The notes under the pieces: model-generated
What the model was told of the DNA's origin: nothing
Database searches by the model: none
The model's input: only the letters and a program-made list of their open reading frames with translations
Part shown: positions 24,549 through 48,735 of the stretch, piece by piece
How positions within the stretch are numbered: the stretch's first letter is position 1
Layout: each line of letters begins with the position of its first letter
Translations under genes and position numbers: made by a program
From: Alkalibacterium sp.
Lineage (GTDB): Bacteria > Bacillota > Bacilli > Lactobacillales > Carnobacteriaceae_A
NCBI GenBank assembly: GCA_020832185.1
Contig: JAFIFE010000006.1
Coordinates: 124,001-188,000 of the forward strand
Direction of reading: 5' to 3'
DNA: 64,000 nt

Positions 24549-24951
24549 CTAAAAGGTGGTTTTCATAACGGAATAGGTAGCACTCGAGGGAAGAGAATTA
24601 GTCGAGTGCGACACAAAACTGAGTTACTGTAGGACTCGAGAGAAGAAGATTAGTCGAGTGCGACACAAAACTGAGTTACTGTAGGACTCGAGGGAAGAAG
24701 ACTGGTTGAGTGTGACACAAAACTGAGTTACTGTAGGACTCGAGAGAAGAAGACTGGGTGAGTGTGACACAAAACCGAGTTACTGTAGCACTCGAGAGGA
24801 AAAGACTGGGTGAGTGTGACACAAAACTGAGTTACTGTAGGACTCGAGAGAAGAAAATCAGGTGAGTGCGACATAAAACTGAGTTACTGTAGGACTCGAG
24901 GGAAGAAGATTAGTCGAGTGCGACACAACACTTGAAAATAGCTGGGACTTA
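24549..24951 (+). repeat. Tandem array of 52-bp GAGT/ACTC elements (array 1)
   Basis: Seven GAGT cores at 24604, 24656, 24708, 24760, 24812, 24864 and 24916, exactly 52 bp apart. ACTC lies 30 bases after each, then 22 bases lead to the next GAGT. A decayed GACTT closes the array at 24946, and a partial first unit starts with ACTC at 24582. Units differ by few substitutions. ACTCGA and TCGAGT arms around the linker form a hairpin; changes in later copies (TTGAGT, GTGAGT) keep G-T pairing. There are no unique spacers and no open frame. It lies between convergent copB and oxidoreductase genes. Confidence 0.9.
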
Positions 24952-30020: not shown

Positions 30021-31310
30021 ATGGGTGTAAAACGAAATAAACCAGTAGATGTACTGGTGGTTGGAGCAGGTTTAGCAGGGTTATCTGCGGCTCTAACAGT
30101 AAAAGAAAAAGGCTTATCCTATGCGGTGCTGGAGGCAAGTGAACGAGCTGGAGGTAAAGTATATACCGAATTCTCAGAGGATGGCAAGCGGTTCTATGAG
30201 CAGGGGGCTCAATTCGTCAATAAAGATATGACTGAGATGATTTCTCTGATCAGAGAATCTGGAATGGATCTCGAACATACTAATATCTCAGATGAGTCGA
30301 TTGTCATCAATGAGAAGAATAAAAAAGCGATCAAGTTGAGTGTGAGTGAAGGCAGGCAGCTGCTTGACAACTTAACCATCGACAGTGATGCGGCCCTTTC
30401 AGAGGTGTTAAACCAGTCGATCGATAATAAATGGGAAAAAAGAATGCTGAAAAGTTACATTGCAGCAGAAACAACGGTCAGCAGTGAACACATCAACGCC
30501 AGGTCAGCCAAGAAAATGGTCAGCCGAATTACCACTCATGAAAATGAATTAAAGTACCAGGCGAATGGTCCACTGAATAACGTAATCGGGCATCTGGAAA
30601 AGCAGCTGGATGAAGCGATTCATTACTGTGAGCCTGTTGTCTCAGTTAAGAAAGATGAGACAGGGTATCTTGTGACCACAGAAAATAACAATGCCTTTAC
30701 TGCAAAAGCAGTTATGCTGGCTGTCCCCCCAACGGTTGCGAACCACATTGACATCAGTCCTGAACTGAAAGCGCACTTCGGTAGTGCTTTAAATAGTTTC
30801 CTGGACGGCGCAGTGATCAAGTTGACGTTTGTGTATGCAGATGATTTCTGGCGTCATCATGAAGTGAATGGAAAAGAGAAAAAAGTATTTGGTGTGATCT
30901 ACGTCGGCAATGAAGGTGTAAATGTGATGGATTCATCTAAGGGTGACGATGAGAATCGTTTGACTATGTTCATTGGAGGCGATAAAGCCAAAGACCTGGT
31001 CAAAGTTCCCCCTCAAGTGAGAGAGAACTTTGCACTGGACCGCCTGGTCGAAGTCTTCGGAGAAAAAGCTGAAAACTACAAAGATGTGGAAGAAAGCTTG
31101 TGGGTCGATGATCCTTATTATGGCGGCGGATATGGAGCAATGGTTCGTACTGAAGGAGATATAGATGCGGAAGAGGTTTTGAGCAGTCCTTATGAGCGAG
31201 TGGTCTTTGCGAGTACAGAGCTAGCTCCTGAATTCCCTCACTTTATGGAAGGGGCCATACGGTCAGGAAGACAGAATGCTGAGCGACTGTTAAATACTCT
31301 AACAGACTAA
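30021..31310 (+). CDS. FAD-dependent amine oxidase-like flavoprotein
   Basis: 429 residues. Dinucleotide-binding VVGAGLAGLSAAL at the N-terminus followed by EASERAGGKVYT, the flavin amine oxidase/protoporphyrinogen oxidase signature, and a C-terminal FASTELAPEFPHFMEGAIRSG that contacts the flavin. It oxidises a C-N or C-C bond of an unknown substrate. CAGGAGG before the ATG. It lies 35 bp after the P-ATPase gene on the same strand, so co-transcription is possible. Confidence 0.82.
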   Translation: MGVKRNKPVDVLVVGAGLAGLSAALTVKEKGLSYAVLEASERAGGKVYTEFSEDGKRFYEQGAQFVNKDMTEMISLIRESGMDLEHTNISDESIVINEKNKKAIKLSVSEGRQLLDNLTIDSDAALSEVLNQSIDNKWEKRMLKSYIAAETTVSSEHINARSAKKMVSRITTHENELKYQANGPLNNVIGHLEKQLDEAIHYCEPVVSVKKDETGYLVTTENNNAFTAKAVMLAVPPTVANHIDISPELKAHFGSALNSFLDGAVIKLTFVYADDFWRHHEVNGKEKKVFGVIYVGNEGVNVMDSSKGDDENRLTMFIGGDKAKDLVKVPPQVRENFALDRLVEVFGEKAENYKDVEESLWVDDPYYGGGYGAMVRTEGDIDAEEVLSSPYERVVFASTELAPEFPHFMEGAIRSGRQNAERLLNTLTD

Positions 31311-31321
31311 AGATAGAAATG

Positions 31322-31366
31322 AAAAACAGACAGTTACTGAGTGAGCGCTCAGTTACTGTCTGTTTT
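31322..31366. terminator. Bidirectional terminator
   Basis: AAAACAGACAG...TGA and complement form a 17-bp stem with one mismatch; T run on the + strand and a matching A run for the - strand. It serves the flavoprotein gene and the convergent symporter. Confidence 0.85.
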
Positions 31367-31383: not shown

Positions 31384-32631
31384 TTAAACTTCCGGTAACT
31401 CAGCAACTGGATCGTCCTGAACGGCAGGTGCACCTTTCAGGAAGTATGAAGAATACACTTTGTCGATAACCAGTGCGATGGCGTTATCACCAGATACGTT
31501 AGCAGCAGTACCGAAGCTGTCTTGAGTAATGTATAGCGTAATCAGCAAGTTACCCAATGTTCCAGTCGGATCGATTCCGACAAGATAAACAAACGGCAGG
31601 GCACTCATTATGGCTCCACCTGGTGCGCCTGGTGCAGCGACCATAGCCACACCTAATGTAGCAATAAATCCTGCCATCATTCCAATACCATGAGGCATAT
31701 CGAACATTAAAAGAACGGCAGTCACACAAGAAGTGATCGTTACAATACTTCCCATTAAATGAATGGTTGCACTTAATGGAATGACGAATTCTCTTATTTC
31801 CTTGGACACGCCATTTTTACGTGCACATTCCATATTGACCGGAATAGTGGCAGCTGAAGATTGTGTGCCTAAAGCGGTAAAGTAACCAGGGATCTGGTTT
31901 TTTAGCAAGATAAATGGATTTTTCCCAGTATAGAAGCCTGCCATCAGGAACATCATGGTGACTAAGAATAACTGAAGCGCAATAACGACGAGGAAAACTC
32001 TCCAGAAGACAGATAGTAAGGAGAAAGCTGTCCCTGTGTAGCTTAGGTTAAGGAAGTTACCAAAGATGTAGATAGGCAGACCAGGAATAATGATCGATTT
32101 CAGAATCATGGTGATGATTGCTCCAAACTCTGAAAAGAAGCCGTACATAACTTCGCCCTTGCCTTCAGATCTCAGCCAGGAAATAAAGACGCCGAAAAGG
32201 AAGGCGAAGATTATGGCTGATGTGACACCGAATAGCGGCTCAAGTGGAAGAGTGAAAATAGGTTCTAGAGCAGCTGTTTCTGATTGAACCGTGTCTCTGA
32301 CCGATGCGTCAATAAAGAGAGGGAATACAGTTGAAGCGATCAGGTAGGCAATAAAGCCTCCTACAAGTGTTGAGCCATATGCCAGAATAGCATTCAAGCC
32401 CAGCAATTTACCTGCCCCTTGACTAATATCAGAAATTCCTTTAATGACATAGCCCACGATCATCAAGGGAATAATGAATGCCAGCAGACTACTGAATAAA
32501 CTGGAAATCGTGATAGGAATGCGCAGGATGAAGTCGGGAATAAAAGTCATCTGTCCAACAGTCACCCCTAAAATGATAGCAATAATCAGTTTGGGTACTA
32601 ACCCTAATTTAAATTTCTTATCTTTTTGCAA
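31384..32631 (-). CDS. Dicarboxylate/amino acid:cation symporter (DAACS family), copy 1
   Basis: 415 residues, about eight membrane helices plus two re-entrant loops. Family motifs include SSAATIPVNMECA and the C-terminal helix NVSGDNAIALVIDK that line the substrate site. It imports a dicarboxylate or acidic/neutral amino acid with Na+ or H+. I choose TTG 32631 because GGAGGAG lies seven bases before it and would be inside the frame if TTG 32646 were used. It is nearly identical along its whole length to the copy at 33635. Candidate cre sites lie upstream. Confidence 0.85.
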   Translation of the reverse strand: MQKDKKFKLGLVPKLIIAIILGVTVGQMTFIPDFILRIPITISSLFSSLLAFIIPLMIVGYVIKGISDISQGAGKLLGLNAILAYGSTLVGGFIAYLIASTVFPLFIDASVRDTVQSETAALEPIFTLPLEPLFGVTSAIIFAFLFGVFISWLRSEGKGEVMYGFFSEFGAIITMILKSIIIPGLPIYIFGNFLNLSYTGTAFSLLSVFWRVFLVVIALQLFLVTMMFLMAGFYTGKNPFILLKNQIPGYFTALGTQSSAATIPVNMECARKNGVSKEIREFVIPLSATIHLMGSIVTITSCVTAVLLMFDMPHGIGMMAGFIATLGVAMVAAPGAPGGAIMSALPFVYLVGIDPTGTLGNLLITLYITQDSFGTAANVSGDNAIALVIDKVYSSYFLKGAPAVQDDPVAELPEV

Positions 32632-32782
32632 TACTAACTCCTCCAATACGTTAATTTTTAGTAAGTCAAAAATAAAGCCTTAAATAAGTTAACCCTTTGA
32701 CAACCAGCGATTTGTAATCCCTTACATTTATATACACTCAACGTATAAATTAGTCACCCCCAATAAAAATGAACTTGTGAAT

Positions 32783-32811
32783 AGTATACAACAATAAAAT
32801 ATAATTAGTAA
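32783..32811 (-). promoter_or_regulatory. Promoter of symporter copy 1
   Basis: On the - strand TTACTA (32811-32806), 17 bases, TATACT (32788-32783). The same -35 box, spacing and flanking ATATTACTAATT occur before symporter copy 2, so the promoter was duplicated with the gene. The leader is about 145 nt. Confidence 0.6.
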
Positions 32812-32846
32812 TATAATTCAAATAGGAGTTAGTGAAAGTTTTGTCA

Positions 32847-32877
32847 TGTAAAACACGTTTACATTAAAACGCTTTCA
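32847..32877. promoter_or_regulatory. Candidate CcpA cre site and adjacent inverted repeat
   Basis: On the - strand TGAAAGCGTTTTAA (32877-32864) matches 13 of 14 positions of the cre consensus TGWNANCGNTNWCA. Next to it is TGTAAA-N5-TTTACA (32847-32863). Both lie upstream of the -35 box of symporter copy 1, the position from which CcpA often activates. Confidence 0.5.
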
Positions 32878-32939
32878 TAAACACCTGACCTCATTTCAAA
32901 AAACCAATCCTATTCCATTCACAAAACGCTTAGAAGATA

Positions 32940-33450
32940 GAGCAGCAATAATAGGTGATCTATTATCAGAACTCAACAAGAATAGGGAGTGAGTACAGAT
33001 AATAGGTGACGGATTATCAGAACTCAATAAGAAATGGGGAACGAGTGCAGATAATAGGCGACAGATTGTCAGAACTCAAGAAAAATGGGGAGCGAGTGCA
33101 GATAATAGGCGACAGATTATCAGAACTCACTAAGAAATGGGGAGCGAGTACAGATAATAGGTGATCTATTATCAGAACTCAACAAGAATGGGGAGTGAGT
33201 GCAGATAATAGGTGACGAATTATCTGTACTCAAGAAGAATAGGGAGCGAGTGCAGATAATAGGTGACAGATTATCAGAACTCACTAAGAAATGGGGAGTG
33301 AGTACAGATAATAGGTGACGGATTATCAGAACTCACTAAGAAATAGGGAGCGAGTGCAGATAATAAATGATTAATAGGTAGAAACCATATAGTAAAGAGA
33401 ATTGAGTAACGGGTTTCGTATTAATAGGCAAAACTCAAGAGAGACGAGTA
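32940..33450 (+). repeat. Tandem array of 51-52-bp GAGT/ACTC elements (array 2)
   Basis: GAGT cores at 32991, 33043, 33094, 33146, 33197, 33248, 33300, 33352 and 33404, with GAGC at 32940 and a last GAGT at 33446. ACTC follows 31 bases after GAGT and the next GAGT 21 bases later. Each unit holds the hairpin GATAAT-N9-ATTATC; the copy at 33197 pairs over 13 bp (GAGTGCAGATAAT against ATTATCTGTACTC). The last two units are decayed but keep the 52-bp frame. The sequence is unrelated to array 1 except for the frame and an AAGAA-containing linker. It lies between the two symporter copies. Confidence 0.9.
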
Positions 33451-33532
33451 TCGTCTATATTAAAGAATCTACAGAAGACAAGTCATATTAGCTTTCTGAC
33501 AAAGTGAGCCCTGACCTCAAGCGAAAGACATT

Positions 33533-33594
33533 AAAAAATCCGAACGCGTGCAAATGGACTCAGAGGTGAGGACCATTCGCAGCATTCGGATTTA
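33533..33594 (-). terminator. Terminator of symporter copy 2
   Basis: Arms AAATCCGAA... and ...TTCGGATTT with imperfect pairing over about 22 bp, followed on the - strand by a run of T. Confidence 0.75.
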
Positions 33595-33634
33595 ATAAAA
33601 GTAACGACGAAATGAAGCGTGTCGGGCAGCGGAA

Positions 33635-34879
33635 TCAGTCAGTTGCTTCAGCTTCAACCCTGACATCAGCCGCAGCTGGTTCTTTCATCAAGTAAGATGA
33701 ATAGACCTTGTCTATGATCAATGCGATGGCATTGTCGCCAGAGACATTAGCTGCAGTTCCAAAACTGTCTTGTGTGATATAGAGTGTAATCAGTAAGTTT
33801 CCAAGTGTACCTGTTGGGTCTATGCCAACCATATAGACAAATGGAAGAGCACTCATGATGGCTCCACCAGGCGCTCCTGGGGCGGCTACCATTGCAACAC
33901 CCAGTGTCGCAATGAAGCTTGCCATCATACCGAAACCATGAGGCATATCGAACATTAACAGGACAGCAGTGACACATGATGTGATCGTTACGATACTTCC
34001 CATCAGATGGATCGTTGCGCTCAATGGGATAACAAATTCTCTGATTTCTTTTGACACGCCATTATTTTTAGCACATTCCATATTGACTGGAATCGTAGCA
34101 GCAGATGATTGCGTACCTAACGCTGTGAAATACCCTGGAATCTGATTTTTCAGCAGGAATAAAGGATTTTTTCCAGTGTAGAATCCTGCAATCAAAAAGA
34201 GAATCAGGATCAGGAGCAGCTGTAGAGCAATAACTACAAGGAAAACTCGCCAGAAGACTGATAATAGTGAGAAAGCTGTGCCAGTGTAACTTAGGTTAAG
34301 GAAGTTCCCGAAAATATAGATCGGCAAACCGGGAATGATGATTGTTTTAAGAATCATAGTGATGATGAGTCCGAATTCAGTGAAGAAACCGTACATCACT
34401 TCTCCTTTGCCTTCTTCGCGAAGCCAGGAGATAAATATACCGAATAAGAATGCAAAGATAATAGCTGATGTGACACCGAATAATGGCTCTAACGGCAATG
34501 TGAAAATAGGCTCCAGCTCAGCTGTTTCAGTTTGAACAGTATTTCTGACCGACGCATCAATGAAGAGTGGAAATACACTTGATGCGACCAAGTAGGCGAT
34601 GAATCCACCAATCAGCGTAGATGAATAAGCAAGGACTGCATTTAAACTCAGTAGTTTCCCAGCCCCTTGACTTAAATCAGAAATTCCTTTAACCACGTAT
34701 CCCACAATCATCAACGGAATAATAAATGCCAGCAGACTACTGAATAAACTTGAAAGTGTGACTGGTATTCTCAGTAAAAATTCTGGTATGAAAGGCAGAC
34801 GGCCAATCACTACCCCCAGTAAAATCGCAATGAGTAGTTTAGGTACTAACCCAACCTTTAAATCATTAATCTTTTTCAT
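33635..34879 (-). CDS. Dicarboxylate/amino acid:cation symporter (DAACS family), copy 2
   Basis: 414 residues. It has the same motifs as copy 1 (SSAATIPVNMECA, NVSGDNAIALIIDK) and the two proteins align without gaps over nearly the full length, with most changes at the termini (DLKVGLVPK against FKLGLVPK). GGGGGAG lies eight bases before the ATG at 34879; an ATG two codons earlier is also in frame. A tandem duplicate with its own promoter and terminator, separated from copy 1 by array 2. Different ligand preference or expression is possible but not shown. Confidence 0.85.
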   Translation of the reverse strand: MKKINDLKVGLVPKLLIAILLGVVIGRLPFIPEFLLRIPVTLSSLFSSLLAFIIPLMIVGYVVKGISDLSQGAGKLLSLNAVLAYSSTLIGGFIAYLVASSVFPLFIDASVRNTVQTETAELEPIFTLPLEPLFGVTSAIIFAFLFGIFISWLREEGKGEVMYGFFTEFGLIITMILKTIIIPGLPIYIFGNFLNLSYTGTAFSLLSVFWRVFLVVIALQLLLILILFLIAGFYTGKNPLFLLKNQIPGYFTALGTQSSAATIPVNMECAKNNGVSKEIREFVIPLSATIHLMGSIVTITSCVTAVLLMFDMPHGFGMMASFIATLGVAMVAAPGAPGGAIMSALPFVYMVGIDPTGTLGNLLITLYITQDSFGTAANVSGDNAIALIIDKVYSSYLMKEPAAADVRVEAEATD

Positions 34880-34955
34880 AATCATTCTCCCCCAAGAATG
34901 GTCACCTTTTAAGGATGCCCGTCTTTTTTTGCTACCTTATCAGGTAGGTCAAATC

Positions 34956-48463: not shown

Positions 48464-48670
48464 GAGATGACTCTAAAAATCAATTAACACGGAGCTCAAA
48501 CTTAATCACTATCCGAGTTGCACTTAGTCAGCAGCACCACCTGTAACTGAAAATATAATCTGGAGTGAGTTGTGTGTAGTGGTCGCCACTACATGTAGCT
48601 CACTCTTCTTAATTATCTGAGTTACAGTTAGTCTGTCCAGCTACATGCAGCTCAGTGAGCAAGTCTCTTT
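48464..48670 (-). repeat. Degenerate 52-bp GAGT/ACTC array (array 3)
   Basis: GAGTT cores on the + strand at 48515, 48567 and 48619 are exactly 52 bp apart, with a weaker GAG at 48464. GAGTTGCACTTAGTC and GAGTTACAGTTAGTC, 104 bp apart, are clearly related. A 20-bp hairpin with a TCG loop (48563-48605) runs from GAGTGAG to CTCACTC; its four non-Watson-Crick positions are all G-T. Linker similarity (AATTAAGAAGAGT on the - strand) suggests opposite orientation to arrays 1 and 2. Confidence 0.65.
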
Positions 48671-48690
48671 CAGTTGAAGGATAAACACGT

Positions 48691-48735
48691 ATAAGGGGTC
48701 ACTCAAAATAGGAGGATCTTTGAGTGACCTCTTAT
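48691..48735. repeat. Hairpin downstream of array 3
   Basis: ATAAGGGGTCACTCAAA pairs with TTTGAGTGACCTCTTAT over 17 bp with one G-T pair and an 11-base loop. It holds ACTC and GAGT near the loop. There is no T run, so it may be a stray element rather than a terminator. Confidence 0.5.

Follow-up and report, generated by a model that had tools for sequence, protein, structure and literature searches.

Repeat families are normally recognised by a sequence which their members have in common. A stretch of 64,000 nucleotides from Alkalibacterium sp. (contig JAFIFE010000006.1, positions 124,001 to 188,000; hereafter the window) raises the question of what holds a family together when its tandem arrays agree in layout and differ in sequence. 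In these arrays spacing is the common property, and the frame outlasts most of the sequence.

The arrays of the window

Array 2 (32948..33365, without assigned strand) contains 8.1 tandem copies of a 51/52-bp unit, as given by TRF (periods of 51, 103 and 154), by motif positions and by motif-free self-similarity at a lag of 52. An earlier note on this DNA had counted about ten units; about eight is the correct figure. Each unit starts with GAGT and ends with ACTC. The seven complete units begin at 32991, 33043, 33094, 33146, 33197, 33248 and 33300, the distance from GAGT to ACTC being 31 in all seven and that from ACTC to the next in-frame GAGT 20 or 21. Inner parts and linkers both recur with few changes between units. 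In the decayed tail (33352..33450, without assigned strand), one more step of 52 leads from GAGT at 33352 to GAGT at 33404, after which the frame is lost: ACTC at 33433, 29 past the latter GAGT, and GAGT at 33446 are both out of frame. The claim that this tail keeps the frame thus holds for a single step.

The array lies between two tandem SDF symporter genes (31384-34885) which are 87% identical and are both encoded on the minus strand. The gene at 31384..32646 faces the array with its 5′ end at a distance of 302 bp, and the gene at 33635..34885 points its 3′ end towards it. Between the array and this second gene, the arms and T run of an inverted repeat (33531..33598, minus strand) mark the probable terminator of the 33635-34885 gene; because its loop is long, it was unscored in the terminator test reported below, which takes stems within 32 nt. 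On the far side of the first symporter gene, a 19-bp inverted repeat with a 6-bp loop (CTCAGTTACTGTCTGTTTT, 31323-31366) forms a terminator-like hairpin after the gene at 30021-31310.

Array 1 (24577..24932, without assigned strand) is located between convergent genes and comprises 6.8 copies of a 52-bp unit. Its inner sequence is unrelated to that of array 2, whose inner dyad boxes, GATAAT/ATTATC, have no counterpart in it; here the earlier reading is confirmed. Its spacings are 30 and 22, with an extra internal GAGT 17 bp after the first. The spacings of 31 and 21 once ascribed to both arrays are therefore not common to them, and only the 52-bp sum is. Within the window arrays, GTAG occurs in array 1 units only. 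Array 3 (48515..48725, without assigned strand) is strongly diverged and lies between convergent ORFs; it is recognised by GAGT at 48515, 48567 and 48619, that is, in steps of 52, and by a best lag of 104, found at C22:172486.

The frame and the period

The frame is commoner than chance would allow. In the genome of the window, matches to the loose pattern GAGT-N24-30-ACTC-N14-20-GAGT number 66+68, against 8+9 for the reversed pattern used as control. With both gaps narrowed to three lengths (9 of 49 combinations), 64+62 matches are retained against 0+2, so nearly all real matches are narrow-spaced. The window is part of contig C22 (305,096 bp), where no other of the 256 tetramers fits the 30-32/20-22 frame as often as GAGT: it has 17 matches, against 1 in the control geometry, and the next tetramer, GTAG, has 6.

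The period can also be detected without any motif. Self-similarity was computed at every lag from 30 to 120 in the 93 intergenic segments of C22 of at least 160 bp. Seven of them pass the threshold of 0.58, where shuffles predict 0.25, and all seven do so at a lag of 51, 52, 102 or 104. Three are the arrays of the window and four lie outside it, among them C22:102399 (array 102401-102514), which is built from AACTAGTC/GACTAGTT and not from GAGT. A decayed array at C22:28060-28300, also outside the window, has TATA...TATA inner boxes, GAGT/GACT ends and a lag that is still 102.

TRF reports 90 rows of period 51 or 52 on 697 kb of loci, a count biased by the fact that these loci were mostly picked for GAGT; examples of other periods are 21 (11 rows), 30 (2), 36 (2), 39 (1) and 76 (1). 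Ten TRF arrays of period 51 or 52 are without an exact GAGT frame. Judged by their consensus, four look like decayed GAGT arrays and six have other end motifs (L047:5223-5478, L049:4349-4514, L065:3876-4382, L071:7227-8000, L206 and L208), CCTTCAC/GTGAAGG, CGTG/CACG and CGTGGAC/GTCCACG among them. Since arrays with other ends share the 51/52-bp period, spacing is a deeper invariant than the ends.

A table of intervals had been restricted to steps of 50-53 and shows low identity within the frame only; a masked-lag test was therefore run as an unconditioned check. With GAGT/ACTC masked, 81 of 88 arrays still have their best lag between 30 and 120 at 50-53 or 101-105; all 88 had originally been found by the motif now hidden. 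Even among the 19 arrays with a similarity under 0.62, 14 are in frame. Of the seven misses, two with a similarity of 1.0 at the shortest lag probably represent runs of N; the other five are genuine (0.46-0.52).

Anatomy of the unit

The units analysed number 340, from 88 arrays in 12 genomes, and 294 of them have a following linker. Inner and linker lengths are (31,21) in 110 cases, (30,22) in 85, (30,21) in 53, (31,20) in 43, (31,22) in 2 and (30,20) in 1, and 291 of the 294 pairs add up to 51 or 52. The two lengths compensate: a linker of 22 accompanies an inner part of 30 in 85 cases vs 2 (23 vs 1 when counted by array), and a linker of 20 accompanies an inner part of 31 in 43 vs 1 (13 vs 1 by array). 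As units were gathered with an inner part of 30 or 31, the choice of linker is the informative part. The base preceding GAGT is T or C in 95%.

Shuffle comparison across 67 arrays reveals that the two half-sites of a unit covary, with a significance that the shuffles overstate because arrays of one genome are not independent. From an initial 83 arrays, 16 had been removed beforehand, namely 14 of Promicromonospora, Humibacillus, Bacillus, L063 and L047 and two duplicates (L072, L073). In the 31-type, covariation concerns positions 5-11 and 13; position 9 is paired in 30.2 of 43 against 11.6 expected, and position 11 in 34.6 against 17.2. In the 30-type it concerns positions 6, 7 and 10-14, with none at position 9 (11.1 vs 11.1). 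From position 15 on, covariation is absent from the 67 arrays, apart from a borderline value for position 17 of the 31-type. Only 28 of 71 GAGT arrays have a whole-unit dyad score at p<=0.05, as do about three of the ten arrays scored as without the GAGT frame.

Diverged arrays indicate which parts are retained. When seven of them are aligned on GAGT, the best-kept columns are 9 and 11-14 (0.59-0.77), two mirror-box columns are kept as well, and so is the ACT of ACTC (0.62-0.77, in a right-hand register which was fitted to ACTC and so favours that motif). Linker columns range from 0.23 to 0.50. A box about 10 bp inside GAGT is thus preserved while most other columns drift.

Grouped by inner sequence, the units of the 88 arrays form many types, with the sum of 51 or 52 kept in nearly all pairs. 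The modular element put forward in the earlier note, defined by its ends and its spacing, gains support from this breadth: the frame is not confined to the loci of the window, and its ends recur in other copies. It has to be amended in two respects. Spacing stands as proposed, but the ends are not universal, as other end motifs occur at the same period. Moreover, the middle, described as free or type-specific, is type-specific rather than free, because the two half-sites of a unit covary.

Distribution across genomes

Sixty genomes were searched, and the GAGT frame has matches in all 12 Alkalibacterium genomes among them. In two of these the reversed control is high (24+19 against 29+23 for the pattern in G002, 32+33 against 47+47 in G005), so that they are not clean positives; CTCA within inner sequences is apparently the cause. 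Three of the other 48 genomes are rich, all of them Lactobacillales (G013 with 65 matches, G021 with 94, G027 with 409), and the remainder have at most 5 each.

A longer frame pattern, run over a species collection in which records near the genome of the window may be missing, gives 37 stretches. They belong to Alkalibacterium (12), Marinilactibacillus piezotolerans (6), a Bacillota MAG (7) and Promicromonospora sp. MEB111 (8), and single stretches come from Humibacillus, an Acidimicrobiales MAG, Bacillus FJAT-27225 and Bacillus P14.5. The hits at L063 and L047 seem to be accidental or incomplete. The frame is at control level in Bacillus FJAT-27225, and Bacillus sp. P14.5 (G063) is not a clean positive, with 28+26 for the pattern against 21+25 for the reversed control. 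At L080 in the latter genome, arrays have a period of 53 and GGATACAT motifs, and the reversed control is as high as the pattern.

The frame is found against a low control in Promicromonospora (26+29 vs 1+1) and Humibacillus (12+12 vs 1+1). Among 28 further relatives of Promicromonospora, one is clear (G065, 11+12 vs 0+0) and one less clear (G067, 7+8 vs 3+3). The inner palindromes of these actinobacteria, GAGTCAG...GGTCSGACC...CTGACTC and GAGTGCCCA...TGGGCACTC, are other inner sequences than those of the Alkalibacterium arrays. In IMG/VR, no viral contig matches the longer frame pattern, and array 2 has no blastn match in plasmid and phage records. A full-text search of open-licence literature returned, among the matches listed, no description of such arrays.

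Genomic setting

Simple ORF calls place an ORF on both sides of 76 arrays. The flanking ORFs are convergent in 31 cases, co-directional in 39 and divergent in 6. At 64 of 106 gene ends the stop codon is separated from the array by a terminator-like hairpin, against 43 of 106 on the opposite strand, which makes the effect modest. According to Pfam, 20 neighbour genes scanned outside the window have ordinary functions, such as the gyrase/topoisomerase IV A subunit, ribose-5-phosphate isomerase, an ABC-F-like ATPase, arginyl-tRNA synthetase, CbiQ and pseudouridine synthase. Among 357 array-neighbour ORFs compared by blastp there is one large cluster of 22 members, three of which were scanned and are ABC ATPases.

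Turnover at corresponding sites

Corresponding positions in different species can carry arrays with different inner sequence. The neighbouring SDF symporter pair is also present in G003, G007 and G011. The gap between the two genes measures 988 bp with the array in the genome of the window, and 380 bp (G003) and 364 bp (G007) without an array; in G011 it holds a short array of another type.

A second such site is located downstream of one ABC-F-like gene, where GAGT arrays occur in the genome of the window, in A. olivapovliticus, in M. piezotolerans and in G027, which belongs to another family. The first two arrays are diverged relatives, next to ATPases that are 98% identical: the linker TTCCTCT.G..TT is common to both, and the inner parts are alike in places. 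The types in M. piezotolerans and G027 differ from these and from each other. The GAGT frame is present at this site in none of the 20 further genomes examined, of 26 with the gene; in four of the 20 the contig ends close by and leaves a stub no longer than 500 bp. At this site G002 and G008 carry 52-bp repeats that lack the GAGT frame. The contigs of four genus members (L206, L207, L209, L210) stop within 500 bp of this gene, as if repeats there had broken the assembly.

Array types also differ in two more gaps with orthologous genes on both flanks (L090/L157 and L060/L091). Individual sites can gain and lose arrays, and two-unit higher-order repeats are seen. Read by eye, an array of M. piezotolerans (L153, G021:C1:510304-510433) and one of G002 (G002:C31:35081-35210) are nearly identical, linkers included, a sign of block transfer between genera.

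A proposed lattice of dimer-binding sites and its alternatives

We lean, with moderate confidence, towards reading the arrays as DNA-level lattices of sites for a sequence-specific dimer-binding protein, or for a small protein family with different specificities. We favour helically phased dimer binding because lengths compensate, half-sites covary, boxes lie about one turn apart and the frame outlives the sequence. The arrays have dyad half-sites at a fixed helical spacing, the property which marks arrays of this kind. Each unit is a 34/35-bp dyad bounded on both sides by GAGT; a further, type-specific box lies about one helical turn inside GAGT, and the centre carries no dyad constraint. As the 51/52-bp repeat corresponds to about five turns, the protein would make its contacts from the same side of the helix throughout, and adjacent dimers might be in touch. 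The arrays lie between genes, favour 3′ ends and often stand past a terminator-like site. Geometry, dispersal, half-site covariation, the persistence of frame and boxes in diverged arrays and the change of type at corresponding sites are observed; the protein, its dimeric binding and the contact between dimers are what we infer.

The main rival holds that the arrays are transcribed from neighbour genes and that the resulting strings of RNA hairpins stabilise or end the message or yield small RNAs. Folding agrees with this to some extent: array 2 reaches a z of -8.1 and array 1 of -3.9 against shuffles, inner units average -7.7 vs -4.8 kcal/mol when shuffled, and the gene strand is weakly favoured, which is no more than suggestive (21 of 33 for co-directional arrays, and 10 of 13 where the difference exceeds 2 kcal). 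The arrays also favour 3′ ends. However, 9 of 88 arrays have no strand that folds better than shuffled sequence does on average, G.T is not preferred over A.C at mismatched dyad positions (counted by array, 51 vs a null of 47.5, p 0.31), many arrays lie past a terminator-like site, and no Rfam 15 family reaches its gathering score in the window. In addition, inner and linker lengths compensate to hold their sum, for which stem-loops have no need. We judge the RNA account unlikely, and slightly less likely still an origin as neutral satellites, in which the copying process itself would measure out 51/52 bp and the frame would record how units are made, with no need for binding. Such a process would suit a single period across different sequences and end motifs, as well as arrays that come and go at a site and form two-unit higher-order repeats. 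Yet units that age neutrally would be expected to gain indels and to lose their boxes as readily as their linkers, whereas diverged units keep GAGT/ACT and the inner box better than the linkers, half-sites covary and the frame persists at low similarity.

Mobile and recombining elements fare worse. That each dyad is a recombination core site, in which a spacer is flanked by two 13-14-bp arms, is suggested by the covarying arms around a centre without dyad constraint, which resemble lox/FRT core sites. Tyrosine recombinase numbers do not track the arrays, however: G001, with 127+125 frame matches and several array types, has only 2 PF00589 matches at 1e-10, while the array-poor G019 and G014 have 9 and 8, and we regard this explanation as very unlikely. 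REP/BIME-like palindromes spread by a Y1 (RAYT) transposase would likewise be dispersed, extragenic and tandem, with a terminal tetranucleotide and many types. A Y1_Tnp (PF01797) match is present in five array-bearing genomes (G003, G010, G013, G063, G064), but seven of the 12 have none (G000, the genome of the window, G001, G008, G021, G027, G060 and G061), and no transposase recurs among the 357 neighbour ORFs; spread of this sort is hardly credible. Sites of HrcA/CIRCE, Lrp, ComK and LysR-type regulators were considered as candidates and dropped for a wrong spacing or motif.

Returning to the proposed dimer-bound lattice, two extensions can be considered. Going by location alone, a coated stretch might serve as a boundary at gene ends, either as a roadblock to run-on transcription or as a supercoiling barrier, a role we find conceivable rather than probable. 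The arrays may also obey a spacing rule without a sequence rule, with obligatory 51/52-bp (five-turn) lattices here and perhaps separately in some actinobacteria. The recognised sequence would then be replaced over time at fixed sites, and a fast-diverging DNA-binding family would co-evolve with the arrays like eukaryotic centromere satellites and their proteins. This scenario is equally tentative. Spacing-based arrays point to an undescribed protein lattice on bacterial DNA, and they might represent a bacterial equivalent of satellite arrays that evolve rapidly.

Relation to known systems

REP superfamilies with GTAG and with CGTC tags are among those described (PMC3733652). The units of array 2 have GAGT/ACTC ends and neither of these tags at the end, and an identity with REP elements was rejected. 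Both systems present dispersed extragenic palindromes, tandem clusters and several sequence types per genome. The present arrays differ in having a GAGT tag at both ends, or another motif, in their strict 51/52-bp period over unrelated sequences and in the absence of a Y1 transposase from the genome of the window and six other array-bearing genomes.

Plasmid centromeres such as sopC of F consist of tandem units at a fixed period, each an inverted repeat bound by a dimer. There, one array of one sequence is found per plasmid, in contrast to dozens of chromosomal arrays of many types here. MIRU-type minisatellites, whose intergenic tandem units measure about 50 bp and occupy dozens of loci, have a sequence common to these loci, whereas here the loci share the frame, the inner sequence differs and the units are dyads.

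CRISPR and TIGR arrays also contain regular tandem units with palindromic parts. Unlike them, the present arrays have no associated gene that recurs beside them among the 357 neighbour ORFs. A Pfam scan of 26 array-flanking proteins (6 in the window, 20 elsewhere) named none as Cas. A CRISPR pattern does not fit array 2, whose units are near-copies including the linkers and not identical repeats with unique spacers. In TIGR-Tas systems, too, the spacer pairs differ between units, in contrast to the near-copies of array 2.
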